Positions 4,841-35,509 of a stretch of DNA of 35,509 nt are shown here, one piece after another. Position numbers and translations under genes: made by a program. Origin of the DNA: a virus. The notes under the pieces were generated by a model. It was not told where the DNA came from, did no database searches, and worked only from the letters and a program-made list of their open reading frames with translations. The stretch lies in IMG/VR virus record IMGVR_UViG_3300035661_000188, positions 1 to 35,509 of that record; one strand, given 5' to 3'. Positions within the stretch are counted from its first letter, which is position 1. Every line of letters begins with the position of its first letter.

Positions 4841-4860
4841 AAGAAGCGGTTAAGCTTCTT
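4841..4860. terminator. Hairpin overlapping the stop codon of the ClpP-like gene
   Basis: A perfect 7-bp inverted repeat AAGAAGC / GCTTCTT (4841-4847 and 4854-4860) with a 6-nt loop. It overlaps the TAA of the ClpP-like gene. On the plus strand it is followed by TCTTTTTT, which looks like an intrinsic terminator, but the genes here run on the minus strand, where the 3' flank is not T-rich. It may limit minus-strand read-through weakly, block antisense transcription, or be chance. Confidence 0.4.
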
Positions 4861-5764
4861 TCTTTTTTCGAGGGGATTTAGGGGATTTTGTAGGGGTTCT
4901 TTCTGGAATTGATTCTACTTGCATAAGTTCTTTAGGAGCTTTTGCTGGTTTTGCTGGTTTTGAGGTTTTTGATACTTTAGGTTCAATTGGTTTTAAACTT
5001 TCGAGATATGCATCTGCAGAAATTGTCCCTATTCTTGTTTTAACGTGAGTAGCAATTCCTCTTTTACACATTTCTTCAGTATCCATCCAAAATTCTTTTC
5101 CAATGGTTAACAGATTAAATTCTTCTTGCGATAAGAATCCTTTATCTAATGTTAAACGTTTAAAAAAGTTTCTTAAATGTGAAGAGTTATGTTTATGAGA
5201 TGATTCAATATCTCCTGCTTTACCAGAAATTACTCCTGAATAATCGTGAAACATTAAATCAGAAAATTCATTAACAATACGAATGTCAGGCATACAGAAT
5301 AACAAGGCACCCATTGAATAACCAGAAGATAGCACTGCTGCAACATTTTCTTTATTGAAGTTATTAATTGCATTAAAGAACAACTTTCCTTCATTTGATG
5401 ACCCTCCATTGGAATCAATATGTAATTCTAAACAATCATCTGGCTCTGCTTTTTCAAGAGTATTAAAAAATGGGTGAAGTTGATTAGATTCTTCGAAAAA
5501 ATCTCCAACATATAATTTATAAATTTTAAAAGGATCTGCATCTGAGTATATTCCTTCTAAGTATTCTCCATTTTCATCCTGTACTGACATTTTCTCTCCA
5601 GGCACTTCTTCAATAAATAGGGTGTGAAAATCTGATCTATGAACCAATTCATCATCATCATCTATTGGATTAAAAAATGGCATTGGAGGAGTTGTTGTAA
5701 TTTTTGCAAATTTCTTTGTATGTCTTGTTTGTCTTGTGTATCTTGTTGGATTAATTAGTCTCAT
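4850..5764 (-). CDS. ClpP-like (S14 family) serine protease with basic C-terminal tail
   Basis: The central region (about residues 80-245) has the ClpP/crotonase protease fold signature. It shows an ELHIDSNGGSSNEG strand-turn (ClpP has xINSPGGxxxxG), the nucleophile elbow SSGYSMGALLF with Ser150, and LMFHDYSG with His173 (ClpP has MIHQP). The segment KEFWMDTEEMCKRGIATHV matches the ClpP segment that carries the catalytic Asp (D-R-x-F-x-S-A-x-E-A), but the Asp position appears to be Lys223. Flanking parts are unusual: a basic N-terminus of about 35 residues, and a C-terminal tail of about 45 residues rich in Lys, Pro and Ser. Phages use such proteases as head maturation enzymes, but this gene lies among early-type genes, so host targeting is also possible. 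It overlaps the preceding 70-residue gene by 14 nt and has an AAAGGA ribosome site. Confidence 0.8.
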   Translation of the reverse strand: MRLINPTRYTRQTRHTKKFAKITTTPPMPFFNPIDDDDELVHRSDFHTLFIEEVPGEKMSVQDENGEYLEGIYSDADPFKIYKLYVGDFFEESNQLHPFFNTLEKAEPDDCLELHIDSNGGSSNEGKLFFNAINNFNKENVAAVLSSGYSMGALLFCMPDIRIVNEFSDLMFHDYSGVISGKAGDIESSHKHNSSHLRNFFKRLTLDKGFLSQEEFNLLTIGKEFWMDTEEMCKRGIATHVKTRIGTISADAYLESLKPIEPKVSKTSKPAKPAKAPKELMQVESIPERTPTKSPKSPRKKKEA

Positions 5765-7360: not shown

Positions 7361-8467
7361 TTATGCCCAATCTGTTTCGTGAATATCTGTTGAAGTTTTT
7401 CCAATAATATAAGCAGTGATTTCTGTTTCTTGAGGCAGAACTTCTACTGACCCTTGTCCTAACCAATGATCAATCCAAGGTAAAGGATTGTTTGAACCAA
7501 TCGATGTAAAAACCTTAGGTAATCCAATAGCTCTTGTTCTAACATTTGTTAAATACATCATATAGTTCTTTAACATCTCAGCAGTCAGACCAATAATTGA
7601 ACCATCTTTAAATAGATATTCAGCCCATTCTATTTCATCTTCTGCAGCCATTCTGTAAAGTTCAATTGCTTCCTCTTCACATTCTTTTGCAATATCAATA
7701 AAGTCTTCGGACTCATCTTTACGAAGTTTATTAATTGCAAATTGAGTACCAGCTACGTGTACATTCTCATCTCTGGCAATAAGTTTAATTTCTTTGGCAT
7801 TTCCTTCCATTTTCTTATTTTCAGAAAATGCAAAAGTACAAGCAAATGAAACATAAAATCTTACTCCTTCAAGAATATTCCAAGCTATTAGTGCTAAGTA
7901 AGTAGCTTTTTTTAACTCTCTTAAAGTTTCTGGTGTTCTATATTCAGGACCAAATGCTTCCCATTTATTAATTAAATCATAAAGAATCTCATATTTGTTT
8001 GCAATATTTCTTGAATGTTTAGTGATAATCTCATCATCAAGAATGTCATCAAACACTTTTGTTGCATCAGTATAAACATTTTTAAGAATATAAGCATATG
8101 TATCAGAATGATTTGTTTCTTGAAAACCAACACGAGTAACCCAATATTCAAACTCTGGTAGAGTACAAATTCTGCCAAATGTTAGAATAGGTGCCCTACC
8201 CTGAAGAGAATCAATAATCTCTTGTCTTTTAAGATTAAGGGTAAATATTCTGTCCTCGTGAGAATCTAAATTTTTAAAGTCTAATACATCCTTAAATAAA
8301 GATACCTCTCCTGGTTTCCAAAACTGAGAATCCATCTTTTGTCCTTGATCATAAAAGAATTTATACTTAAATCGATCATATCTTTGAAGATTCCTTGCTC
8401 CATTCTCAAAGTCAAAGAGTTTTCCTTGACTAAAATTTACTTTTGTATCACAATCATATAATTTCAT
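7361..8467 (-). CDS. nrdB: Ribonucleoside-diphosphate reductase class Ia, small (beta) subunit
   Basis: Provides the tyrosyl radical and di-iron centre for reduction of ribonucleotides to deoxyribonucleotides, together with NrdA. The expected ligands can be read off against E. coli NrdB: Asp86 (IIDSLQGR), Glu117 and His120 with radical Tyr124 (ETNHSDTY), Glu200 (ILEGVRFYVSFAC), and Glu234 and His237 (LIARDENVH). The 368-residue length is normal for the family (E. coli 376). The C-terminal end, needed to dock on NrdA, is intact. It starts 12 nt after nrdA with an AAAGGA ribosome site, in one operon. All key residues are present, so the enzyme should be active. Confidence 0.97.
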   Translation of the reverse strand: MKLYDCDTKVNFSQGKLFDFENGARNLQRYDRFKYKFFYDQGQKMDSQFWKPGEVSLFKDVLDFKNLDSHEDRIFTLNLKRQEIIDSLQGRAPILTFGRICTLPEFEYWVTRVGFQETNHSDTYAYILKNVYTDATKVFDDILDDEIITKHSRNIANKYEILYDLINKWEAFGPEYRTPETLRELKKATYLALIAWNILEGVRFYVSFACTFAFSENKKMEGNAKEIKLIARDENVHVAGTQFAINKLRKDESEDFIDIAKECEEEAIELYRMAAEDEIEWAEYLFKDGSIIGLTAEMLKNYMMYLTNVRTRAIGLPKVFTSIGSNNPLPWIDHWLGQGSVEVLPQETEITAYIIGKTSTDIHETDWA

Positions 8468-8479
8468 TTTTGTCCTTTA

Positions 8480-10696
8480 TTAAACACTACAGCCACCACC
8501 AGAACAGCTTTCATCAACTTTATCAAGACTTACGTCCTCTTCTAAAAAGTTACTATAATACATTGTTTTTAACCCTAATTTATGAGCAGTAACAATAGCT
8601 TTAATTAATTTTCCAATTGGAAAGTTTCCATCTTTATCAAAATCAGAAGCTGACCACCATACATTTGTACTAATTGACTGGTCCACATATAATTGAAATT
8701 TAGAAATCATTTCTAAATATTTTAAATTATCAACCTCTTTGGCCAATGTATAGTAAGAGCTTCCTTTGCTAAAGTTCGGAACAATTTGTTTAACTGGTCC
8801 ATATTTAGATGACTTACTAACTAAGAAATCCCTAGGCATATCAACTCCAGATGTAGAACCAGATACATCAGAAGAAGTACCAGCAGGAGGAATAGCAGAA
8901 AGAGTCAGATTCCTTAAGCCGTATTTTATAATATCAGCTCTTAGTGCTTCCCAATCTTCGTGTGAAATAAATCTCCATTTTCCATCGTTTGGTAACCAAC
9001 CATCTGCATATTTTGATCGTTCTCTAAACCAAGGAGCTTCTCCTCGTTCTTTTGCTAGTTTTACAGATGCTTTTAATAAATTGAATTGCATATGTTCTGA
9101 GAACTCTTCCGCTAAATCTAGTGCTTCTTGAGTATTATATCTGACTTTATTTTTTGTTAAATAATGAGCCCAATCAGATGTTCCAACTCCAACATATCTA
9201 GCATTAATAGTTGCATTTTCTGCAGCTGGTAATGGATACTCTTGAATATCAATAATATTGTCAAGACCTTTAAGTATCTTATAAGTTAAATCTGGTAATT
9301 GATCTATACTTTTTAATTTTCCTGCATTTATATTACTTAAAATACAAAGAGCAATTTCTCCATTTTCATCATAAAGATGTTCTAATGGTTTTACTGCAAG
9401 AAGAATCTCTGCGCATAAATTTGACATCTTAATAACAGATTTTAAAGGGCCTTTATTTGCTGTAGAGACGAATAAAGGATAAATTCTACCAGTTTCAAAA
9501 TATTGAGTAGCATAATCTTTAAAAAACTCTCGAGCAGAAATTTTTTTCTTTCTAATTCCTTTTTTATTTTCATAATCAATATATGTTTTTTCCCATAATT
9601 GAGTATCATATAAATTAGTAATTAAATCTTGTGTTTCTTCTGAACTAAATAATGTCCATTCTTTGTTTTCTTCTAAACGCTTAAAAAATAAATCAGGGAA
9701 TCCTATACCATAATCAAGCCCTTTTGCAGAATTTTCTTCTGTTGACTTATTAGACTTTAGGTTAATAATCTTTTCAATTTCCCAGTTCCAACACATATGA
9801 TATGATGTTGCTCCACCACCTCGAGAACCCTGAGAAAATGCTTTAACAGCACTTTGAAACCATTGAAGCATCTTAACAATACCAGTATGAATAACAGTAC
9901 CATTGGCAACTGGAGCACCTATTCCTCTAATACTAGAATTGGAAAGTCCAATACCAGCTTTAATAGTTGTCATTACTACAGCTGCAGAAGTAGCAGAAGT
10001 TAAAGATTTTGTTGTATCGTCAGAATCTATCAAACAACAGCTTGAATAGCCTTTAATAGGAGTTCTTAAGCCTGACATAATTGGACTTGGTAAAGAAATA
10101 TAAAAATCTGATAAATCATTATAGTAAGAAACAACTTGTTTAAGTCTATCTTCTTTTTCATTTTTAAACATAATAGCAGGAACAAGCATAAATAACATTT
10201 GAGGAGATTCTAATAATGTATTGGTAACCCTGTCTTGAACAATGAATTTATCAACTACTGTTCGTAAACCTGAATATGTGAAAGTAAAATCTTTATCGTG
10301 GTTTATTTTAGAATCCAAATAATTAATTTCTTCTTCTGTATAGTAAGCAAGAATATTTTCATAATGTTTGGTTTTAATATTTCTTTTAACTATTTCTAAT
10401 AATGGTTTTGGTTTAAATGTTCCAAAAAGTTCTTTTCTAATATCCATAAGAAGTGATCTTGCCGCAGCATATTGATAATTAGGAGAGCGCTCTGAAATTA
10501 AGTCAGCAATTGCTTTGGTAGTTATTTTATGAATATCTGAAGTACTGACACCATCTACAAATTGAATCTTAGAGCTAATTTCAATTTCTGAAGGAGATAC
10601 ATTATTCAGTCCTTCACAAACCCATTCTACCATTTTATGATATTTTTCTAAATCTAATGGGACTATATCCCCATTTCTTTTTTTAACTGTTTTCAA
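8480..10696 (-). CDS. nrdA: Ribonucleoside-diphosphate reductase class Ia, large (alpha) subunit
   Basis: Catalytic subunit making deoxynucleotides for phage DNA synthesis. The N-terminal 90 residues form an ATP-cone (VKKRNGDIVPLDLEKYHKMV), the allosteric activity site. Active-site motifs follow: GYSSCCLI with the first redox Cys, SNLCAEI with the thiyl-radical Cys plus Asn and Glu, IALCILSNIN with the second redox Cys, and the Tyr pair in LKTMYYSN that relays the radical from NrdB. The C-terminus ends CSGGGCSV, giving the thioredoxin/glutaredoxin-accessible Cys pair. The 738 residues are normal length. The start codon is TTG at 10696, set by an AAAGGA ribosome site and the conserved N-terminus. 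Upstream lie both a late octamer and a host-type promoter. Confidence 0.97.
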   Translation of the reverse strand: MKTVKKRNGDIVPLDLEKYHKMVEWVCEGLNNVSPSEIEISSKIQFVDGVSTSDIHKITTKAIADLISERSPNYQYAAARSLLMDIRKELFGTFKPKPLLEIVKRNIKTKHYENILAYYTEEEINYLDSKINHDKDFTFTYSGLRTVVDKFIVQDRVTNTLLESPQMLFMLVPAIMFKNEKEDRLKQVVSYYNDLSDFYISLPSPIMSGLRTPIKGYSSCCLIDSDDTTKSLTSATSAAVVMTTIKAGIGLSNSSIRGIGAPVANGTVIHTGIVKMLQWFQSAVKAFSQGSRGGGATSYHMCWNWEIEKIINLKSNKSTEENSAKGLDYGIGFPDLFFKRLEENKEWTLFSSEETQDLITNLYDTQLWEKTYIDYENKKGIRKKKISAREFFKDYATQYFETGRIYPLFVSTANKGPLKSVIKMSNLCAEILLAVKPLEHLYDENGEIALCILSNINAGKLKSIDQLPDLTYKILKGLDNIIDIQEYPLPAAENATINARYVGVGTSDWAHYLTKNKVRYNTQEALDLAEEFSEHMQFNLLKASVKLAKERGEAPWFRERSKYADGWLPNDGKWRFISHEDWEALRADIIKYGLRNLTLSAIPPAGTSSDVSGSTSGVDMPRDFLVSKSSKYGPVKQIVPNFSKGSSYYTLAKEVDNLKYLEMISKFQLYVDQSISTNVWWSASDFDKDGNFPIGKLIKAIVTAHKLGLKTMYYSNFLEEDVSLDKVDESCSGGGCSV

Positions 10697-19259: not shown

Positions 19260-19961
19260 TTATCCTTCGTACATAATATTAACTAAACCAGCATCAAAAG
19301 CATCAGTTCCATTTACTGTTGTAATTCTTATTCTATCTAATGTTCCAGATAGAGTTTTAGACCCAGCTACAAAGCCAAAGAAGTTAGTATCACTTCTTCC
19401 CATAATTCCATTAGCTACCCAGATATTTCCTGATATATTTGATATAACAACTTGTCCTTGCTGTACAACTGTTGCTAATCCAGTTTGTATTGTCTCAAAG
19501 CCAGTAGATAGATTAGAGTAGCTTGCAGAACCTCCGATGTTTCCGCATGCACCAGCATATGAAGTAGATTCTATTCCTCCAGCAGTACCTACTCTTATTG
19601 CTGTATCACTTGTTCCATTTGTACTAACTCCATTAAACATTACTGTAATTCTCTTAACCCAACTAGGTATCCCAGTAAAGTCAATAGAAGTTCCACTTGT
19701 TGTTGCTACAGAAGTGCTAAGTACCATTTTTCCATCTACATAAGCAGTCGTAGCCAACTGAGTATTGTTTGTTCTAGCTGTAGCAGTTGGAGCAGTTGGA
19801 GTTCCAGTAAATGCTTGAGAATCTACTAAAGCTACCGAACCACTGACATTAGGAATAGTTAAAGTATAATTAGCAGAAGTATTATTAACAGGAGCTATTG
19901 TTACGCTACCACCTAAAGTATTTCCAAATACCATTGTTCCATTTGAATTTATTGTTGACAT
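19260..19961 (-). CDS. Short tail fibre, paralog of the 18283 gene
   Basis: A 233-residue fibre. Residues 1-55 (TLGGSVTIAPVNNTSANYTL ... VSGSVALVDSQAFTGT) are like the N-terminus of the Gly-rich fibre. The next block is the 201-bp-encoded module shared with the 210-residue fibre. The centre is different, and the C-terminal end (DRIRITTVNGTDAFDAG ... NIMYEG) is again shared. The start is ATG 19961, overlapping the TAA of the gene upstream by one base (TAATG). A longer start at 19976 has no support. Confidence 0.8.
   Translation of the reverse strand: MSTINSNGTMVFGNTLGGSVTIAPVNNTSANYTLTIPNVSGSVALVDSQAFTGTPTAPTATARTNNTQLATTAYVDGKMVLSTSVATTSGTSIDFTGIPSWVKRITVMFNGVSTNGTSDTAIRVGTAGGIESTSYAGACGNIGGSASYSNLSTGFETIQTGLATVVQQGQVVISNISGNIWVANGIMGRSDTNFFGFVAGSKTLSGTLDRIRITTVNGTDAFDAGLVNIMYEG
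19608..19808. repeat. 201-bp exact direct repeat, copy B
   Basis: Identical to 18628-18828. Recombination between the copies would delete or duplicate 980 bp, including the 112-residue chaperone gene, and would fuse the two fibres in frame. Confidence 0.93.
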
Positions 19962-20332
19962 TATAATACCACCCATCGTGAACCAGAAGATACAGTGACT
20001 GTTACACCACTATTTATTGTTACATTTCCATTTGAATCACCTACAGTTACAGCAGACATTCCAGAAGGAATTACATAGTTTGAAGTGACTGTAAAACCAT
20101 TATTGTTGAATACTTTGTCAGTCCCTCCACCTGTTGCTCCACCACCAACTGAACCCCAAGCTCCATTTACATAAGCTTCCATTGCTAATAAATCAGAGTT
20201 ATATCTCATATATCCATTAACAGGAGATGCTGGTCTTTGAGCTGTTGTACCAGATGGCATAAATGCAGCACCCGTATCTGAGTCTTTACTTACTTTTATA
20301 ACATTTATTTGGTCAAGTGAATATTCGATCAT
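19961..20332 (-). CDS. Detached fibre-tip-like protein related to the long fibre C-terminus
   Basis: A 123-residue protein. Residues about 18-123 align with the last 100 residues of the long fibre at 13170: TGAAFMPSGTTAQRP (long fibre TGASFIPVGTTLQRP), NGYMRYNSD (NGLIRYNTD), GGGATGGGTDKVF (GGGAVGGGQDKVF), and a final strand ending RWVVL. It lacks a shaft, so it may be a separate tip subunit or a fragment left by recombination. It starts in an ATGA-type overlap with the 120-residue gene and runs directly into the next fibre gene. Confidence 0.7.
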   Translation of the reverse strand: MIEYSLDQINVIKVSKDSDTGAAFMPSGTTAQRPASPVNGYMRYNSDLLAMEAYVNGAWGSVGGGATGGGTDKVFNNNGFTVTSNYVIPSGMSAVTVGDSNGNVTINSGVTVTVSSGSRWVVL

Positions 20333-20691
20333 AGTGCGAATTCTCCTATTTTTTGAGGTCTTAAGTATTCTTTAGTAGTCCCATCCATATCTACATAACT
20401 CACTGGTACATCATATGGATATACCGATTTATATAAAGCCAGAGATACTTCATTAGCAAACAGCTCCTCATAAGTACCAAGTGATTGTATGGACTTCAGA
20501 GTACCTATAAATGCTAATTCCTCATCTGTAAGGATAGACATTGCTAAACTACCATTTTTATTTTTAATAACTGGGGTGGTTTGGATAGTCCATCCAGTTA
20601 CAACTCCATCTATATCTTTTGTTTTATAGCTATCAGGAAGTTCGTTCATAAAAGCTATAGTATCTTTACAATATGTAATAACATAATTCAT
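20329..20691 (-). CDS. Small protein in fibre cluster, possible chaperone
   Basis: A 120-residue protein with no recognised domain. It follows the large fibre gene at 20726 by about 34 nt and overlaps the fibre-tip gene by 4 nt. It has strand-like ends (NYVITYCKDTIAFM at the start, PVSYVDMDGTTKEYLRPQKIG at the end) and a helical middle. By position it may assist fibre assembly, as the other small genes here do. The ATG at 20691 follows a GGAGATAATAA ribosome site. Confidence 0.6.
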   Translation of the reverse strand: MNYVITYCKDTIAFMNELPDSYKTKDIDGVVTGWTIQTTPVIKNKNGSLAMSILTDEELAFIGTLKSIQSLGTYEELFANEVSLALYKSVYPYDVPVSYVDMDGTTKEYLRPQKIGEFAL

Positions 20692-20725
20692 TTATTATCT
20701 CCATTTCTTTTGATTATTTATTAAG

Positions 20726-22432
20726 TTATGCAAGTGCTACCTCATAAGCTGTCAAGGCTCTGTCATAAATACGGAAGTTCGAGTAGTGTCCATAGGTTTT
20801 ACTCCCAGCGTCATTACTAACATTTGAACCTATTATAATAGCTGTACTTGGTACTAAAGAATTAGAAGTTCCTGAACTTCCTGAGTATTTGTATACTCCA
20901 TTCATATATGACTTAGTAACTCCAAGATTATTGTGTGATAGGGAATATCTTGTCATTACATTTAGAGTAGCATTACCTACGCCAATTTGCGACCCACTAA
21001 CTGCGTCTGACCCATATTGTAGTGTCATGCTTGATGCTGATGTATTATAGAACGCTCTATATGCAGTAGTCTGCCCATTAAATTCAAAGACAGCTCTATA
21101 ATAGTTTTCACTACCACCTAGTGTTGCAAAGTCTACAATTAATGTTTCCTCTGAAAATCTATTAGTTACACCATTTGAATTACCTATAGAAGTTATACTA
21201 AAATTATCAACAGCTCTAGTGACAGTACTAGCAACAGTAGGAATATACGATGAAGCAAAAGGTAAAGCTTCTAGTTGTGGAGCTACACAATACCAAGTGT
21301 CATTGACTACTGGGGCCACACCATCTATAGAAATGTTGAAGTCAACATTTGAAGTAGAACCTGTTGTTATAGTTAGCGTAGATGTAGCTCTTGCCCATGC
21401 CCCAGTTGGGTAAGTATTAGTATTTCCATTATCCGTGCCAGAAAAATCTACCTTAAAAGAGAATGTTGAGCCATATGTAGATGGAACATACATAAATACA
21501 GATGCGGTGTAGGTAGTTGAAGAAGTTAGGTTTAGTGCTTGACTTGAAAATCGTATATTTGGTGTTGAAGTAGCAATAAACTTAGTCACATTTAACCCTA
21601 TTGCTACATCAGATGAAAAGGGTACTGTACTATTATCAGTAGTCTGCGTTACATATCCACCTAAACCACTGCTCCATGGGAATGTCATCATATTATTTGA
21701 TTGTAAAAGTAAGTTTGTACTAGCACCCTCATTCAGATACCCTTCTTTTTCAAATCTTGGAGTATCTACAGCGGAAGTTTGTAGAACACCATATCTATCA
21801 ATATATGTAGCAGTAGAAGTTCTTGTGAATGTAGCACTACCAACACCAGATTTCATAGCTAATGAATTTTTTAAAGGCATATCCAATAGTGGAGCATTAA
21901 TATTACCGATAGCCATTAACAAATCTGAATTATTAGCTTTCAAGTTATCAGCTGTTGTAACAAAAGCAGTAGTAGCCAACTGAGTAGTGCTTGTTCCTGC
22001 TGTAGCAGTTGGAGCAGTTGGTGTTAGAAGTAAGTTTACACCAGATGTTGTAAAAGTTGCTACAGGCTGAGTATTACAAGTAGCGCCAAAAGAGCCATCT
22101 GCAATATGGTACAACCCAGTATCTGGTGCTCCATCATTTGTAAATGTTAATCCTGGAGCAGAAGCTGTTCCTTCTGGAACAGTCACCTGCCCAGTGAATG
22201 TTGGTGAAGCAATAGTTGATTTTAAATTAAGAGCAGATTGAGTTGCAGTAGATATTGGCAATGCCGATGCTTGATAGCCGCCCAGTAAGTTAGCATTTAA
22301 ATTAGTTACAACAGTAGTAGATGCTACAGTTAATGGAGCAGTTCCAGTTGTTACAGTTGAGTTAAATACAGGAGCATTGACAATATCTCCAGCATCTATT
22401 CCTTTCCTGACTTTAAAGTTTTGGTTTGACAT
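20726..22432 (-). CDS. Large tail fibre with probable lectin-like (ConA-type) C-terminal domains
   Basis: A 568-residue fibre. Residues 1-130 are fibre modules (NANLLGGYQASALP, ASPTFTGQVTVPEG, GLYHIADGSFGATCN shared with the long fibre). The middle has the TPTAPTATAGTSTTQLATT module. From about residue 215 a beta-sandwich pattern follows (LQSNNMMTFPWS, YTASVFMYVP, WYCVAPQLEALPFASSYIPT) as in carbohydrate-binding modules of fibres. The last 150 residues (FNGQTTAYRAFYN ... HYSNFRIYDRALTAYEVALA) have the LamG/ConA-like ending in which N-F-R-I-Y-D-R-A-L-T is typical. It probably binds surface sugar. Late promoter at 22476. Confidence 0.82.
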   Translation of the reverse strand: MSNQNFKVRKGIDAGDIVNAPVFNSTVTTGTAPLTVASTTVVTNLNANLLGGYQASALPISTATQSALNLKSTIASPTFTGQVTVPEGTASAPGLTFTNDGAPDTGLYHIADGSFGATCNTQPVATFTTSGVNLLLTPTAPTATAGTSTTQLATTAFVTTADNLKANNSDLLMAIGNINAPLLDMPLKNSLAMKSGVGSATFTRTSTATYIDRYGVLQTSAVDTPRFEKEGYLNEGASTNLLLQSNNMMTFPWSSGLGGYVTQTTDNSTVPFSSDVAIGLNVTKFIATSTPNIRFSSQALNLTSSTTYTASVFMYVPSTYGSTFSFKVDFSGTDNGNTNTYPTGAWARATSTLTITTGSTSNVDFNISIDGVAPVVNDTWYCVAPQLEALPFASSYIPTVASTVTRAVDNFSITSIGNSNGVTNRFSEETLIVDFATLGGSENYYRAVFEFNGQTTAYRAFYNTSASSMTLQYGSDAVSGSQIGVGNATLNVMTRYSLSHNNLGVTKSYMNGVYKYSGSSGTSNSLVPSTAIIIGSNVSNDAGSKTYGHYSNFRIYDRALTAYEVALA

Positions 22433-22475
22433 AGGTTCACTTTCCCCTTTGTTTTAATTTTGTTTTACTTTGGAG

Positions 22476-22483
22476 TATTTATA
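22476..22483 (-). promoter_or_regulatory. T4-type late promoter for large lectin-like fibre and downstream genes
   Basis: Exact TATAAATA on the minus strand, 43 nt before the ATG at 22432, between the two genes. Confidence 0.8.
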
Positions 22484-22485
22484 AC

Positions 22486-23118
22486 CTAAAAAGAAAGAGT
22501 CCAAGTAATCACTAATGTAGATGTATTATCTTTTTTAATTCCTTGGAATGTTTTAATATTAAATAAACGAGTACCAGCATAAAATCCAGCTTCAGAATAA
22601 TAAATTCCATTAGTACCATCTCCATAATTAGCCACGGTTGGTGGAATAGTTACAACATAAGTTACAGTTTTTGTGTCTGTATTTGCTGTTATTGAAACAC
22701 CCGAAACCACAGCAGTAGTAATTTTTGTTGTACTAGAAGCTACTACACCAGAATTAAATTCTTCTTCACGAGAAACAGCCCTAGTTCCAGTATTATTTCC
22801 AGAACCAGCGAATGTAATAGCATAGCTTGTTCCACCATCAACAGTTTCTTCAGCAAATAGTTTAGTTCTTGTTGAATCAAGTCCAGAAGAAATACTTTTT
22901 GCAACAGCTATATTATTATTAACAACACCTTCTGTTCCAATAACAAATTTATTAATAGGGACTCCTGATGAAACTCCTGCAATTAATTCAGCTATGTTTG
23001 GTCTGGCTGTATCAACAATTAAGTTTTCCTCTTCAAAAGTTTCTAAAAGATTATTTTTATAATCAAAACTTTCTACTTTAAAATACCCTTTAATTGGTTG
23101 TGTGTAAGAATCTTTCAT
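22486..23118 (-). CDS. Baseplate/tail fibre-linking structural protein
   Basis: A 210-residue, beta-rich protein. The N-terminus IKGYFKVESFDYKNNLLETFEEENLIV and the end NGIYYSEAGFYAG, LFNIKTFQGIKK, TLVITWTLSF follow a pattern common in phage tail proteins found between baseplate and fibre genes (E-A-G-x-x-x-x-x-x-L-F ... F ... I-x-K ... L-x-I-x-W). It likely lies at the baseplate edge or connects fibres. It sits between the 422-residue baseplate gene and the first fibre. No exact T4 counterpart can be named. AAAGGA ribosome site. Confidence 0.65.
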   Translation of the reverse strand: MKDSYTQPIKGYFKVESFDYKNNLLETFEEENLIVDTARPNIAELIAGVSSGVPINKFVIGTEGVVNNNIAVAKSISSGLDSTRTKLFAEETVDGGTSYAITFAGSGNNTGTRAVSREEEFNSGVVASSTTKITTAVVSGVSITANTDTKTVTYVVTIPPTVANYGDGTNGIYYSEAGFYAGTRLFNIKTFQGIKKDNTSTLVITWTLSF

Positions 23119-27449: not shown

Positions 27450-27731
27450 TTAATTGATTGATAGAGAGCTAGATGATGTTGCAGTATCTCCACAAGATAT
27501 CGGGTCACCACCAAGAATAATTTTTAAACCATTTATAGTAACAGATGATGTACCTGCAATTGGTGGCATTGTGTGTGTTACACCAGAAGAGTTCGTATGA
27601 GAACTATATTTATCTCCTGATAGTGCGAGTTTTGTTCCATTTAAAGTAACAGAAGAAGATGCATGAATTGGAACAGCTGGCCAAGACCCGTGTCCAGTAG
27701 ACATATTTCCATCAATAACTATATTTGCCAT
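27450..27731 (-). CDS. PAAR-type spike tip protein
   Basis: A 93-residue PAAR-repeat protein predicted to sharpen the tip of the central spike. It has the family pattern DGNMSTGHGSWPAVPIHASSSVT, a repeat of the form VTLNG-x-K-x-ALSGD and VTINGLKI-x-LGGDPISCGD, and His14, His23, His45, His53 and Cys80 as candidate metal ligands. The small size is usual. It lies between the 435-residue gene and the gp25-like gene; such a tip is expected close to the gp5-like spike gene (29048-30007). Ribosome site AGGAG. Confidence 0.86.
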   Translation of the reverse strand: MANIVIDGNMSTGHGSWPAVPIHASSSVTLNGTKLALSGDKYSSHTNSSGVTHTMPPIAGTSSVTINGLKIILGGDPISCGDTATSSSSLSIN

Positions 27732-29047: not shown

Positions 29048-30007
29048 TTAAATCACCATTGTATTTGAAGCAGATTTTAAAGTTATTGCTGCACCAGAAG
29101 TTATATTTACAGCACCCGAAGATTGCAGAGTAGATGCACCTGTAGAAAAAATATTTGATGTACCTGTTGTTTTAATATCAAGAAGTCCAGTAATAACAGA
29201 ATTAACATTTCCAACTACATTTAGTTTTGCGTTTCCATCAACTGATATATTTGTATCAGCGTTAGAAGTTATATTGATATTACTATTTGCTAAAATATTC
29301 AAATCATTATTTGTTTTAATAATAGCAGGACCATTTGAAGTAATATTTATTGATTCTGATGTATTAATTTGTATTGCTCCAGTAACACTCATTGTAAATG
29401 TATTTAAAACAGTTCCGGTAAATTTACCAGCTGTCAACTCTGTTCTATCTTTAACAGAACTTACGTGAATGCCTTCATTATTTAATAGAACTTCATTTCC
29501 ATTAGTGTGACAAATTCTTATTCTTTCATTTCCAGCACTATCATCAATTTCTATAATATGACCGGCTAAAGTTTCAATTACATGATTATCAGGATATCCT
29601 GGAATTGCCAAGTCATTAACATCTGACTGTCCAAGTCTTGAAGCAACTGGCAAGTCATATTCTCCGGCTTGTGTTGGTGTTCCTGAAACTGCGCCTATAA
29701 CAATTGGCTGATTTGGATTATCATTATCTAAAATAACAAGAACCCACGTGCCTGTTCTAGGAATAGATGTTTCACCTATTCCTGTTCCAAATCCAAATGC
29801 CAAAGATTGCATTACTTCTGCCCAAGGCAAAGTTGAAGTAGGAACTAAAGTTTTGTCTTGTGAATGAATTCCAAAAATTCTTACTTGTACTCTTCCATCT
29901 TTTTTAGGAGAATCATTATCTTCTATAATTCCTCTATACATTTTAAATAAATTATTAATACTTTTTAATTCATCTATTGTCGGAGTTGATTTAGCTTCTT
30001 TTTCCAT
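29048..30007 (-). CDS. Baseplate spike protein, gp5-like OB-fold and beta-helix, no lysozyme domain
   Basis: A 319-residue spike protein. Residues about 20-120 are the OB-fold seen in gp5/gpV/VgrG (MYRGIIEDNDSPKKDGRVQVRIFG, then GTGIGETSIPRTGTWVLVILDNDNPNQPIVIGAV). Residues about 125-319 are a repeated TxNIxSxGxAxIxTx pattern that forms the triple beta-helix needle. T4 gp5 has a lysozyme domain between the two, and here none is present. A wall-degrading role appears to be moved to the large protein at 32666. It follows the gp27-like hub gene by 1 nt. Confidence 0.86.
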   Translation of the reverse strand: MEKEAKSTPTIDELKSINNLFKMYRGIIEDNDSPKKDGRVQVRIFGIHSQDKTLVPTSTLPWAEVMQSLAFGFGTGIGETSIPRTGTWVLVILDNDNPNQPIVIGAVSGTPTQAGEYDLPVASRLGQSDVNDLAIPGYPDNHVIETLAGHIIEIDDSAGNERIRICHTNGNEVLLNNEGIHVSSVKDRTELTAGKFTGTVLNTFTMSVTGAIQINTSESINITSNGPAIIKTNNDLNILANSNINITSNADTNISVDGNAKLNVVGNVNSVITGLLDIKTTGTSNIFSTGASTLQSSGAVNITSGAAITLKSASNTMVI

Positions 30008-30008
30008 A

Positions 30009-31175
30009 TTAAACCTTTTTCTTGTCTGTGTTATTTACTCTTCCTACACTAATCTTTTGAATCATTTTTGTACCAGCTATCTTATCGTGAATAGATAAAA
30101 CCAAATAATCTCCGTTTAATATCTCATCTCCAGATTTTAACTCTTCTGTGTGTATTGTAGAACCAATAATCTTTACTCCTCTTCTTTCAAATAGAACATT
30201 ATCAAGGACTCCAGGAACAAATAGTTCTAAAGTTGTATTCTGAATATAATTAAAAAATGTTTCTTTTGAAAGCATATCAACACCACTATTAACTTCATCA
30301 TATGACTGCTGAACACCATTTGTATTTTGAATATAAAGCTCTTTTGATAATGACATATTCATATCATCGTACAAATCGGATAAATTTGATTTATTTTCGA
30401 TTATTTTTTTATTTAAAGGATCATAAACCCACGTGCTTTTTATAGGTACTCTCAAATTGTCATAAGTATTATTAAAATCTGTTGTAACATCTAGTATTTT
30501 ATAAAGATATTTAGGATTTTCAACATCTTGTGAAAAATTCCTTTCTGGCTTTGTTTCTGACGCTGAAGGATATAAAGATTTTATATGTTTAATTTCATAT
30601 GAGTTTTTTTGTTGAAACCAAACAAATCCTTCTTGATTTAGCTGATACTCAATAAAGTCATAAAGACATCTGTCTCCAGGAATTACAAAGTTTTCATATG
30701 TTGTATTTGTTTGAGCAAAGTTTCTTTTAATTTTTGATGTATCATAAGAGCTGTCTATTTTGAAAATACTAAAAATATCTTCAATAATTGCACTTAATTT
30801 AATATTTGAATAACCTTTTGAATAAAAAGTATTTTTTAATATATAAGAAACAGTATCAATTAAATTTATATTTAGGACTCTTATATTTTCATCTGATAAT
30901 TTTGTTGTTTTGATTTGCATAATATGAAATTCTCTTTCAAAATGAACATCCGATAAATCAGTAACTTGTAGTTTTACTTTTTTTTCTTTAAAATCTGTGA
31001 ATAGATTCATTACATTGGCATTATCAACGATCATCATTGTTGCTTGAACTTCAAATTTATTAAAATTCCAATGAATCTCAATATCTTGCATATTTTCATT
31101 TAATACTTCATTATCATCGATAAAAACTTTAACTAATTTTAAATCGGACGAGGCGTCAAATAATCCTTGTTTCAT
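30009..31175 (-). CDS. Baseplate hub protein, T4 gp27/P2 gpD-like
   Basis: A 388-residue hub protein, the trimeric base on which the spike stands. It has the gpD/gp27 pattern: N-terminal beta domain (VKVFIDDNEVLNENMQDIEIHW, KVKLQVTDLSDV), the segment IVKNT-like ILKNTFYSKGYSNIKLSAIIEDIF, the central QTNTTYENFVIPGDRCLYDFIEYQLNQEGFVWFQ typical of tail tube/hub proteins, and a C-terminal barrel. It lies next to the spike gene, as expected for gp27-gp5 partners. The start ATG is preceded by AAGG. Confidence 0.82.
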   Translation of the reverse strand: MKQGLFDASSDLKLVKVFIDDNEVLNENMQDIEIHWNFNKFEVQATMMIVDNANVMNLFTDFKEKKVKLQVTDLSDVHFEREFHIMQIKTTKLSDENIRVLNINLIDTVSYILKNTFYSKGYSNIKLSAIIEDIFSIFKIDSSYDTSKIKRNFAQTNTTYENFVIPGDRCLYDFIEYQLNQEGFVWFQQKNSYEIKHIKSLYPSASETKPERNFSQDVENPKYLYKILDVTTDFNNTYDNLRVPIKSTWVYDPLNKKIIENKSNLSDLYDDMNMSLSKELYIQNTNGVQQSYDEVNSGVDMLSKETFFNYIQNTTLELFVPGVLDNVLFERRGVKIIGSTIHTEELKSGDEILNGDYLVLSIHDKIAGTKMIQKISVGRVNNTDKKKV

Positions 31176-31177
31176 AA

Positions 31178-31654
31178 TTAACCTTTATAACCATATTGTT
31201 TCATTATAACCAAAAATTCGTTAAGTTTAAATGGTTTAATGATTTTTAAGACTCTATTATTGTCATTAGAAGTAGTAATTTGTTCTAACCAAAATTCTGA
31301 AAGTTCTTCTCTTTCTTTTGAAGGAATAACAGATTTATATACATTTGATTCATAACTATTAATAATTTCATCTGAAAAATCTGTCATTAATATGTCACTA
31401 TAAAACATATCAAACAATGGGTCACGATTATTTAACAATACTAATAAGTCCCAGTATTTTGTAGAACCATAAAGATCATATGCAATTGATTCTATCGTTT
31501 GATTTTGAATAATCTGAATGTACGTAATAAAAGTTAAATCACTTGCTTCAGGAATATCGTACACCTTTGTACGTTTATCTCCAGCGAAATATTTAATATT
31601 AATTCCTCCAACTTCTTCTGTTGGAAAAACTAATTGAGAATTTGTCATAAACAT
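31178..31654 (-). CDS. 53: Baseplate wedge protein, T4 gp53-like
   Basis: A 158-residue protein. The central block TIESIAYDLYGSTKYWDLLVLLNNRDPLFDMF is typical of gp53-type wedge proteins (E-x-I-A-Y-x-L-Y-G ... W-x-x-L-x-L-N-N-x-x-D-P) and has the LysM-like flavour of this family. It would fix the wedges together around the hub. It lies between gp48-like and hub genes. Ribosome site AAGGAC, start ATG 31654. Confidence 0.8.
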   Translation of the reverse strand: MFMTNSQLVFPTEEVGGINIKYFAGDKRTKVYDIPEASDLTFITYIQIIQNQTIESIAYDLYGSTKYWDLLVLLNNRDPLFDMFYSDILMTDFSDEIINSYESNVYKSVIPSKEREELSEFWLEQITTSNDNNRVLKIIKPFKLNEFLVIMKQYGYKG

Positions 31655-31663
31655 TTTAAGTCC

Positions 31664-32656
31664 TTATTTTGCAGCTGGGTCTGCAGCTGGGTCTGGAGTA
31701 AGTAAACCTGTTATTCCTTTGCCCGCACTTACAGCCGCGTCTTCAATGAAATTTCCCCCAGCCTTTATAGCATTTGTCATACCAGTTGAAGCTACGTCTA
31801 AGGCATCCAATGAATCAGTAGTTGGATCATATTTTTCCTTTCCGAACAATTGTTTAGTCATTGCCGAAATTTCTGAACAAGCCACAGTTAATTTTAAATA
31901 TTTTGGAGTTCCATCAAAATATAAATCCATCATACCAGAACCAGCATAATCAACTGTTACAGCAGTAATAACTACTGGCTGAAAATGAATAGATTTCAGC
32001 TTAGGATTGGACACATCAATTAACCAAAAATTTGGTGCTTCAAGAATCGCATTTGTTATTACTTGATCTGGAGAAGAATATATCTTGAAATTATTAATTG
32101 CAGTAAAAATATCTCTAGCCATTAAATCTGATTCTATAATTAAATCCCAAGAAAATGAAAAAGTTCTACACTCTGTTCCACTATATTTTTGAAAATATCC
32201 CGGGTCTGCCCCTGGTACACGTGTACCAGATTTTGCTGCCGTTTCTTGAAGAGCTTTCATTGCAACATCTCCAGCTCCGCCACCGTATTTGCCTAATACA
32301 GAACCTAATTTTGATGCCGCATCTTTTGCTATTCCTGTTTCTTTTGCCCATTCGTGTCTAAGGTCTTCACTAAATGCATTTGGTAAAGGCATACCTATAA
32401 CAATTTGTGATCTTTTATTTTGTAAAAGATTTTCTGCGAGTGTCTTATGAGTCGTAGCTTCATCTGATGTTAAATTTTTATTTTTTGCATCTTCTGCATT
32501 TTTAGACTTATCTGCAATACAAGCAGTAAATGTAATAATCATATTTGGTGAAAGATTTCTAAAACTATAAACAGAAGGAGACTTTTCATTAGCAAATGTT
32601 TTCGATGTTTGAGTTGTATCTGGTAAATTACTTGTTTGTTTGTTTGATTTGCTCAC
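31664..32656 (-). CDS. 48: Baseplate tail-tube cap, T4 gp48-like
   Basis: A 330-residue protein predicted to cap the hub and start tail tube assembly. The C-terminal half has the gp48 pattern: ECRTFSFSWDLIIESDLMARDIFTAINNFK, then NFWLIDVSNPKLKSIHFQPVVITAVTVDYAGSG, then YFDGTPKYLKLTVACSEISAM. The N-terminal 140 residues are polar and Ala/Gly/Lys-rich with a loop KYGGGAGD. The start is GTG at 32656 behind AAGGAG. It directly follows the large tail protein, as gp48 follows the tape measure gp29 in T4. Confidence 0.8.
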   Translation of the reverse strand: MSKSNKQTSNLPDTTQTSKTFANEKSPSVYSFRNLSPNMIITFTACIADKSKNAEDAKNKNLTSDEATTHKTLAENLLQNKRSQIVIGMPLPNAFSEDLRHEWAKETGIAKDAASKLGSVLGKYGGGAGDVAMKALQETAAKSGTRVPGADPGYFQKYSGTECRTFSFSWDLIIESDLMARDIFTAINNFKIYSSPDQVITNAILEAPNFWLIDVSNPKLKSIHFQPVVITAVTVDYAGSGMMDLYFDGTPKYLKLTVACSEISAMTKQLFGKEKYDPTTDSLDALDVASTGMTNAIKAGGNFIEDAAVSAGKGITGLLTPDPAADPAAK

Positions 32657-32665
32657 CGAAACTCC

Positions 32666-35509
32666 TTATAAAATGGTACTTCTAAACAGATCACTTGGGT
32701 GATATTGATCAGCTTCTTGTGGACTATTTATATTATTATTAGAAATATTTGTTGTTGTTTGTCCTCTATCTTGAGACATAGATGAGTCTTTTTCTTTAGT
32801 TGATTTAACAATATCTTCAGAAGCTTGTTTTACTATATCTTCTTTAGGTTTTTTAGAAACTTCTGGAGTGGCAGTATCATCATTGTCATCATCGGAATCA
32901 TCCACATCTTTATTAATTTCATCTTCAGACACAGTTGGTTTTGTCATATCCCCTTTTGGTTGAACTTTCTGAGAAGTTTTCTTAACTGATGCTGCAGCTG
33001 ATGTATCTCTGGCAGGAGCATTGACACCATCTCCCACAACAGGAACTTTTGCAAGTGCTCCTTTTCTATCTCCAATTGGCTCAACGTGCCAAGGCTCATT
33101 GCTCAATGGACGATATAAACCATATTTTGCTAATAAACCCATTTGGGCAGCTTCATTCACTGGACCAACATCTGATTTATTTAAGTCAACAGCTAAGCCT
33201 TTTTCGTGGAAAGACCTTCCAGGAGGTGCAACATTTTTACCAGCTTTGACAGCATCTCCACCATCTTTTTTTAGTTCAGCTGCATAAAGGGCAGCTTGTT
33301 GAGCTGTACTTCTATAACCAGAAGTCATAGTGATAGTTTTTTTAGTTCTTTGATTATATTCTCTTGCCATTGCACCAATATTTCCCATCAGTGCTTTATT
33401 AACATGTTCTGTATCAATTGTTCCTGCTGGTTTAAGCCCAACAGCGCTTTTAAACCCATCCCAGACTCCACCAATAGCACTAGATGCTTTTCCTGCCAAT
33501 GAGTCATCTACAGTAGGAAGGGCTTGTCCACCACTTGCAGTATATTTTTGCATTCTTGAATTAGTTTCTGCTTGTCTTCCGTCAGCATTATTATATGCTA
33601 CATTAGCACCAGAATGTCCAGCATTAATAGTCTGACCAAGTGCTTTTGTATTTCCTGCTTGAGCTAAATCCATAGCTGATTTTTTTGTTGTCGGATCAAT
33701 ATGAGTTTTTAACCACACGAGTGTTGCTTGAGCTGCAATATTTTCATTTGTTGCCAACAAATCAGGATTGTTCTCTAAGTCTACACCAATTTTTTTACCA
33801 ATATCTCTATAATTAGCACGACCGGTAATTTGAATAAATCCACGACCTTTGTATTTTTGTCCATCACCTGGTTGGGTATTTCCAAGTTCTCTGGCTTTAC
33901 CAGGACTATATTGAGGGTCGTATCTATTAAAATAAGGGTCAATGCCTGTTGCTGGATTAGGACCATTACCCTGTTCTGTCATTCTCTTAAACCCAGTCTC
34001 TGCAGCAACTTGTCCAGTAATATTAGCTATTGTTTTAGGGTCAGTAACTCCGGCAGCTCTGATATTATTAACAAATCTTGCTTCTCGTTCTTGAGCTTCC
34101 TTTGTTCCAAGGACTGCTTCTTTAGCAGAATTCCAAACATTTTGAATACCTTGTCCAGCTGCTCCTGCAGCATTTCCAATAGTAGATGCTAATTTTCCAA
34201 AAAATCCTTGTGGAGATTGAGAAGGAGATTTTGGTGGAGGAGGTACTGGTGCTTTTTTATTGTTTGATTCTTCTTTGGCTTTGGCTGCATCTTTTGCGTC
34301 TTTTTGCTTTTTTAGGTTTTCTTCAGAAGATGATTTTACTTTTTTTGATTTTTCATCATCTGTATTCTCTTTAAAGTATGCTAAAATTAAACCTTTAATA
34401 TGTTCTAGTCTTTCTTTGGCATCAGGGTCTTTTTCAGGGTACACATTATAAACAGCTTGATAAACATCTCTAGCAATAATAACAATATCAATTGCAGCTG
34501 AAGCAGCCGTGCCAACAACTGGGAACATTGCCGCCCCACCAGAAGCAATACTTAAAGCTGCCCCTGTTGTATCTCCTTGCATATATGAAAATGCTCCAGA
34601 AACAGCAGCGAAGGCTAAACCAAGAACAGGTACTTTTCTAATACCAGCACTTATTAATGACTTTGCCATAATTTTTTTAATAGCTGTCATAACAACACTT
34701 CTTGATGCTAATTTGCCTGCTTTTGAAACAAGGTTTGCTTTAAGCGTTACTTTAGGAGAAAAAAATAATTTCTTAGCTCCTGATATAACAGATTTTACTC
34801 CATCTTTAGCTGAGTTATATATTGATTTAGCTTTTGAACCAACTTTTTCGGCAACAGATTTTACTCCATCTTTAGCTGAGTTATATATTGATTTAGCTTT
34901 TGAACCAACTTTTTCAGCAACAGATTTTACTCCATCTTTAGCTGAGTTATATATTGATTTAGCTTTTGAACCAACTTTTTCAGCAACAGATTTTACTCCA
35001 TCTTTAGCTGATGTAAATATTGATTTAGCTTTTGAACCAACCTTTTCAGCAACAGATTTTACTCCATCTTTAGCTGATGTTATTTTGGAAACAATATTTT
35101 TTTTAATTAATTCTTTTGCACTTTTAAATTTTTCAGCTAATTTAACAAATGGCCTTTTTACAGCTCTTCCAAATTTAGAAGCAATTCTTTTCATCACTGA
35201 GACACCTAGGAGATTAGCTAAACCACCAAGAATAAAGTCAAACATTGAACCTGTTCCACCATCATCTTTTGTACTCGACTTTACATCACCAGGAATTTTT
35301 AAACCGGCTTCTTGCTGTTTTTTTACTTCCTTATATTTAGTGTCTTGTTCATCAATTAAATCATCTGCTAATTTTTTAAGAAATTCTGAAGTTTTTTTAG
35401 ATTCTTCTAAATTTTCTTTATTAACTTCAAGAATTTGATCTGATGTTTTAATAAGTTTTTCTGCTTGTTCTTCAGCTTTATTTTGAGCATCAAGCCCAAT
35501 TGAACTTGA
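32666..35509 (-). CDS. Large tail protein in tape-measure position with GH19 and M15 cell-wall domains (5' end beyond window)
   Basis: The frame stays open to the window edge, so the first Met at 35245 is probably internal; at least 947 residues are encoded. The 88 residues before it are coiled-coil-like and charged ([17 protein letters not shown] type). Then come basic N-terminal helices, four and a half copies of a 22-residue repeat (34787-35085), a hydrophobic region (about 34480-34650, likely membrane or tail lumen), a Lys/Glu linker, a GH19 lysozyme-like domain (about 33530-34110, [11 protein letters not shown] and [13 protein letters not shown]), and an M15B VanY-type peptidase domain (about 33060-33430, [24 protein letters not shown]). 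The end is acidic and Asp-rich. The position before gp48 matches the T4 tape measure gp29, so it may set tail length and digest peptidoglycan at infection. A structural lysozyme outside the tube is the alternative. Confidence 0.8.
32725..32732 (-). promoter_or_regulatory. Possible late promoter for gp48-like and baseplate genes
   Basis: Exact TATAAATA on the minus strand near the 3' end of the large tail protein gene, 68 nt before the gp48-like start. Plausible internal promoter. Confidence 0.55.
34787..35085. repeat. 66-bp tandem repeats encoding 22-residue units
   Basis: Five anchor copies of CATCTTTAGC at 34801, 34867, 34933, 34999 and 35065, exactly 66 bp apart, mark about four and a half near-identical units. 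Each encodes a 22-residue unit of two 11-residue halves ([11 protein letters not shown] and [11 protein letters not shown]). The copies differ by only a few bases. The array lies in the large tail protein gene. Confidence 0.95.

Follow-up and report, generated by a model that had tools for sequence, protein, structure and literature searches.

A tape-measure-like tail protein with GH19 and M15 domains encoded among T4-like baseplate genes

The window analysed here spans an entire IMG/VR contig (35,509 bases) and ends within a long gene that directly precedes a baseplate tube cap gene, the place of the tape measure gene 29 in T4 (gene order 51-27-28-29-48-54). The encoded chain contains two domains of peptidoglycan-cleaving families. 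The locus raises the question of what kind of protein occupies this position (hereafter the slot), and whether the two domains belong to a tape measure, to a tail lysin, or to an endolysin.

Full-length gene and its neighborhood

The initial annotation had described a chain of at least 947 residues that ends 9 nt before a gp48-like gene. Indeed, the reading frame is open at the right end of the window, comprises 947 aa within it, and has its stop 9 nt ahead of the next gene, which matches a tail tube cap PHROG (Table 1). A second contig (L001, IMGVR_UViG_3300036715_003528) overlaps the window and encodes the identical 947 residues plus 123 further N-terminal residues. Upstream extension through this overlap leads to the true start, and the complete gene runs from ATG to stop.

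Table 1. Features of the tape-measure-like gene and its neighbors in the window (residue numbers refer to the full-length protein)
Feature	Position	Strand	Remarks
Gene for tape-measure-like tail protein, truncated 5' by window	32666..35509	-	full length 1070 aa in L001:9632-12844
Core motif, residues 151-182	35333..35428	-	also in relatives' slot proteins, enzyme-bearing or enzyme-free
66-bp tandem repeat (22-residue repeats)	34787..35083	-	4.5 copies, 96% matches
Hydrophobic segments rich in glycine and alanine, residues 408-473	34460..34657	-	part aligned to phrog_23178
GH19 domain, residues 595-795	33494..34096	-	Glu627 at 33998-34000, Glu635 at 33974-33976
VanY / M15 peptidase domain, residues 815-946	33041..33436	-	His891, Asp898, Glu928, His931
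Low-complexity C-terminal tail	32669..33040	-	last residues DLFRSTIL
Baseplate tail tube cap (gp48/54-like), next gene after slot	31664..32656	-	PHROG match 1.1e-16
gp53-like baseplate wedge protein	31178..31654	-
gp27-like hub protein	30009..31175	-	assigned from position and a weak match to the "late control gene D" protein of a Vibrio phage
gp5-like spike with OB fold and needle	29048..30007	-	no lysozyme domain
PAAR spike tip	27450..27731	-

The protein begins with a helix-prone N-terminal core, helix being judged by composition only, which agrees with the coiled-coil-like N-terminal part noted before. The 22-residue repeats and the hydrophobic stretch described initially are also present, the latter being the strongest of the full 1070-aa protein. 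Two relatives show how this layout varies. L002 (1023 aa, 88% identity) has 2.6 copies of the 66-bp repeat, and the slot protein of L034 (862 aa, 49% identity) was found to have none. A 309-aa reading frame on the opposite strand, 34509-35438 (+), spans the repeats and was taken as an antisense artefact of the array rather than as a gene.

In L001, two gp26/gp51-like baseplate hub proteins are encoded directly before the slot gene, and the cap and gp53 genes follow it. Farther upstream lie genes for tail tube paralogues, a DNA end protector, a protease, a scaffold protein, and the major capsid protein. A separate long helical tape measure gene just upstream would compete with the assignment of the slot protein as tape measure; no second long helical reading frame was found upstream in L001 up to the contig end, and the tail regions of L001 and the window contain no other one either. 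Just upstream of the slot, L001:5494-8093 encodes three gp19-like paralogues of the tail tube protein on one strand and, adjoining them on the opposite strand, a fourth, more divergent one.

The order hub-slot-cap-gp53-gp27-gp5 is repeated in Vibrio phage phiKT1024 and in many viral contigs (seen in L093, L096, L109, L116, and L120), and with two extra genes in Campylobacter phage F207. By major capsid protein, the closest cultured relatives belong to the Va1/phiKT1024 group of Vibrio phages (59%), and Campylobacter phages reach about 51%. The same slot encodes an 878-aa protein in phiKT1024 and an 888-aa protein in F207.

Elsewhere in the window we observed genes for the small and large subunits of ribonucleotide reductase (7364-10696), a 304-aa protein with a Clp-protease domain (4853-5764), and, amid baseplate and tail genes, a protein of 568 aa that contains a LamG-like lectin domain (20729-22432).

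Two predicted wall-cutting domains

The initial annotation had recognized two different peptidoglycan-cleaving domains in one chain, a GH19 muramidase-like domain and a VanY-like M15B domain. Both assignments hold at the level of sequence, with the catalytic residues of both domains present. The GH19 domain matches PF00182 with 42.4 bits against a curated cut-off of 25.5 (Pfam, E=9.3e-11). Glu627 and Glu635 are unchanged in 38 aligned GH19 domains and line up with the catalytic pair of the SPN1S endolysin, also in the 4ok7 alignment. A prediction of GH19 folded alone from 35 sequences (three phage-collection rows were left out) reached a mean pLDDT of 87.1, and the best named PDB matches of the model are GH19 endolysins and chitinases. 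An earlier prediction of both domains together, made from 4 sequences, had a mean pLDDT of 39 and was set aside.

The VanY match (Pfam, E=2.6e-10) likewise lies above the curated cut-off. The domain features the M15B motifs SxHxxGxAxD and ExWH, whose His, Asp, Glu, and His, the zinc and catalytic residues, are unchanged in 8 slot proteins. Among the relatives found with the M15 profile are solved DD- and LD-carboxypeptidases and an L-Ala-D-Glu peptidase, and several bond specificities are possible for the domain.

Comparison of L001 with L002 gave dN/dS values of 0.10 for GH19, 0.15 for M15, 0.21 for the core, and 0.47 for the tail; by this measure, both enzyme domains are under purifying selection. 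One substitution beside the first GH19 glutamate suggests that one or both domains might no longer cut and might serve in wall binding or as structural elements. The histidine preceding the first catalytic glutamate, which is 93% conserved among GH19 endolysins (PMC8547705), is replaced by alanine in the window protein, L002, and L034. The window protein therefore lacks a residue that is typical, though not strictly defining, of GH19 domains of the endolysin type. A loss of cutting activity is nevertheless highly unlikely, because even L034, at 72% identity, retains both GH19 glutamates and the M15 residues, with dN/dS values of 0.19 and 0.24.

Slot proteins of relatives and the tape-measure assignment

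We searched viral contigs with the neighboring hub protein and with the enzyme domains, read the next gene, and scanned a selection of the slot proteins by Pfam. GH19 together with VanY occurs in the slot in the window, L002, and L034/L032, SLT with VanY in L012, and a VgrG3-like muramidase with M15 in L093 and L014 (VanY match just below the cut-off in the latter). VanY is the only enzyme domain in phiKT1024, F207, L024, L026, L039 (partial), L116, L120, L109, and L096, phage lysozyme the only one in L023, and M23 is found in L041 and L044. The Pfam scan detected no enzyme domain in the slot proteins of L027, L028, L033, and L040. Counting only contigs found via the hub protein, and excluding those found via M15 itself, complete slot proteins contain M15 in about half of the cases. 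Among these relatives M15 recurs, whereas its glycan-cutting partner varies between GH19, SLT, a VgrG3-like muramidase, or none, as judged by domain matches; the tree of M15 domains is too poorly resolved to count changes of partner.

Related arrangements exist outside this gene order. L188 encodes GH19 and VanY in one 1168-aa protein within a different gene order, and Vibrio phage Va2 and the cyanophages S-CREM2 and S-B68 encode a long, similarly placed protein that contains GH19. In the two cyanophages, this protein is followed by another long one with a phage lysozyme domain (L010:8711-10627 for S-B68, L009:8721-13088 for S-CREM2). In L231 (4723-9221), GH19 and a weak M15 match are split over two adjacent long proteins that follow a weakly hub-like gene. 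A profile scan of genome contigs with the two-domain alignment returned no bacterial relative.

Slot proteins with and without enzymes have the motif ILxVLxKIxxDxIDEQDTSIK in common. When profiles of the window family and of three enzyme-free slot proteins were compared, 137 core columns aligned (E=1.7e-7, probability 93.8). A core-motif profile built without the window family ranked slot proteins on top and matched the window protein with E=8e-4 for the whole chain and 0.013 for the domain. By these scores, the link of the window protein to the core motif is weak but real. Because the motif is common to enzyme-bearing and enzyme-free slot proteins, the enzymes look like plug-ins on one tape-measure-like protein family.

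The C terminus provides a further hint. A (L/I/V/S)F motif lies at most 14 residues from the end in 11 of 18 slot proteins, compared with 5% in their C-terminal regions; the 18 proteins are related, so that the probability of this terminal motif does not count as independent evidence. The motif recalls the tape measure of phage 80alpha, whose last residues hold the chain in the tail tip (PMC7048315).

The slot protein thus lies between hub-assembly and tube cap genes, is a long and, by composition, helical chain, and has no nearby rival. Together with the core motif of the enzyme-free slot proteins and the lack of an upstream candidate in L001, this position supports the tape-measure role well, which had initially been derived from position. 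Matches of the repeat region to PHROG tape-measure profiles were left out of the evidence, because many profiles of this kind are hit by repetitive helical sequence. We conclude that the protein is probably the tape measure of a T4-like contractile tail, consisting of a helical core, a hydrophobic segment, GH19, M15, and a short C-terminal hub anchor.

Alternatively, the slot might be occupied by a hub-attached tail lysin or plug that does not set length, with another protein serving as the ruler. Consistent with this, homology to gp29 was not detected: the T4 gp29 family (phrog_1283) had no match in G000 or in the contig of L001, while the T4 control was detected, and no gp29 homologue was found in the complete phiKT1024 and F207 genomes. 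In addition, slot proteins vary in length from 545 to over 1200 aa, and in S-CREM2 and S-B68 two long proteins, both bearing a wall-cutting domain, are encoded between the gp26-like and spike genes. In phiKT1024, one long hypothetical reading frame without an assigned role (19947-22637) might be a tape measure. However, neither the window nor L001 offers a second long helical frame in the tail region as the ruler, and a pure lysin would hardly require the core that the slot protein has in common with enzyme-free ones. We therefore regard this alternative as unlikely.

Slot proteins of relatives have been annotated as endolysin or peptidase. The best PHROG match of the slot protein is named endolysin, and the homologous M15 protein was called endolysin in the Pv27 paper (PMC12063606). 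It is extremely improbable, however, that the protein serves to burst the cell when infection ends, although some of these annotations imply this. The gene lies within the baseplate operon and encodes a long chain with a core common to enzyme-free proteins. Furthermore, phiKT1024 encodes GH19 separately in a 294-aa frame, the size of an endolysin, F207 encodes SLT separately in a 202-aa frame, and a study of Fletchervirus lysis named the SLT protein as the endolysin, excluding the virion-associated hydrolase (PMC7692668). The tape-measure reading suggests that the endolysin-annotated slot proteins of relatives are tape measures as well.

The gp5-like spike of the window matches OB-fold and spike models only (Pfam, PHROG), so the initial statement that it lacks a lysozyme domain stands. 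The accompanying proposal, that wall digestion moved from the spike to the slot protein, is only partly supported and too simple. The spikes of L028, L033, and L040 also lack a lysozyme domain, and the slot proteins of these contigs contain no Pfam-detectable enzyme. Conversely, the spike of L035 contains a CHAP domain (Pfam scan of the spike, not of the L035 slot protein), the gp5-like spike of cyanophage BUCT-ZZ01 contains GH19 and a weak, below-cut-off M15 match, and the spike-type protein L206 contains GH19 together with an M15 match seen by profile but not by Pfam. Because the BUCT-ZZ01 and L206 spikes carry GH19 and M15 matches, wall cutters appear to occur in either the spike or the slot.

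Proposed mechanism and comparison with known systems

By analogy with 80alpha and diffocin, the core would lie in the lumen of the tail tube and the C-terminal end would be held in the hub; the length of the core would help to set tail length. For comparison, the tail of Pv27 measures 103 nm (PMC12063606); arithmetic from this value and the chain lengths before the enzymes is too loose and was not used. Upon sheath contraction, the spike would open the outer layer, and the chain would then leave the tube C-terminal end first. GH19 would cut the sugar strands and M15 the stem peptides, creating a local hole in the wall. Subsequently, the hydrophobic segment might help the tube or the DNA across the inner membrane, a role that has been proposed for T4 gp29 (as cited in PMC11948020). 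We infer virion presence, orientation, enzyme activity, and order of action from the anatomy of the protein. Folded GH19 is perhaps too bulky for the tube lumen, in which case the enzymes may sit in the hub.

Hydrolase-bearing tape measures and tail lysins with two blades, such as CwlP and diffocin, are already known. Single wall-cutting domains are established in the tape measures of T5, TM4, and phiIPLA35 (PMC6116005), and according to a 2017 review all virion-associated lysins reported with two lytic domains came from phages of Gram-positive bacteria (PMC5380687). The cultured relatives in the T4-like clade considered here infect Gram-negative Vibrio and Campylobacter; if the host of the window virus is Gram-negative like theirs, the slot protein would be an exception to that review. 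In a limited check of the open-access literature, we found no description of a T4-like tape-measure slot that combines GH19 and M15, and no report of a recurrent M15 domain with a changing glycan partner. The chances seem evenly balanced that the tape measure of this clade is a delivery rod with a recurrent M15 domain and an exchangeable glycan cutter, or none, which would extend two-blade cutting beyond tails directed at Gram-positive bacteria. One slot with zero, one, or two cutters forms a natural series that could show what such enzymes add to entry.

Among the known systems, the slot proteins of phiKT1024/Pv27 and of the Fletchervirus F207 are alike in slot and M15 domain, but by Pfam possess no glycan-cutting domain in the same chain. 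Cyanophage BUCT-ZZ01 also combines GH19 and an M15 match in one chain, which is, however, the gp5-like spike and not a protein in the tape-measure slot. In T4, the gp29 gene likewise precedes the cap gene, and the wall is digested locally at entry; in that phage the cutter resides on the spike gp5, whereas gp29 has no known enzyme and no sequence match to the slot protein. CwlP (YomI) of the Bacillus prophage SP-beta resembles the slot protein in carrying two wall cutters, of the SLT-type and M23 families, in one tail-type chain. These are a muramidase and a DD-endopeptidase domain within one large protein (PMC5380687). In contrast to the GH19 plus M15 pair among T4-like baseplate genes, CwlP belongs to a siphovirus of a Gram-positive host and uses other families. 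At the tip of a contractile tail, the diffocin hub-hydrolase CD1368 likewise unites cutters for glycan and peptide in a single chain, which has been likened to a "pair of scissors" (PMC10996793), but its MltA-like and NlpC/P60 domains are mounted on a gp27-like hub rather than on a tape measure and are directed at a Gram-positive target.
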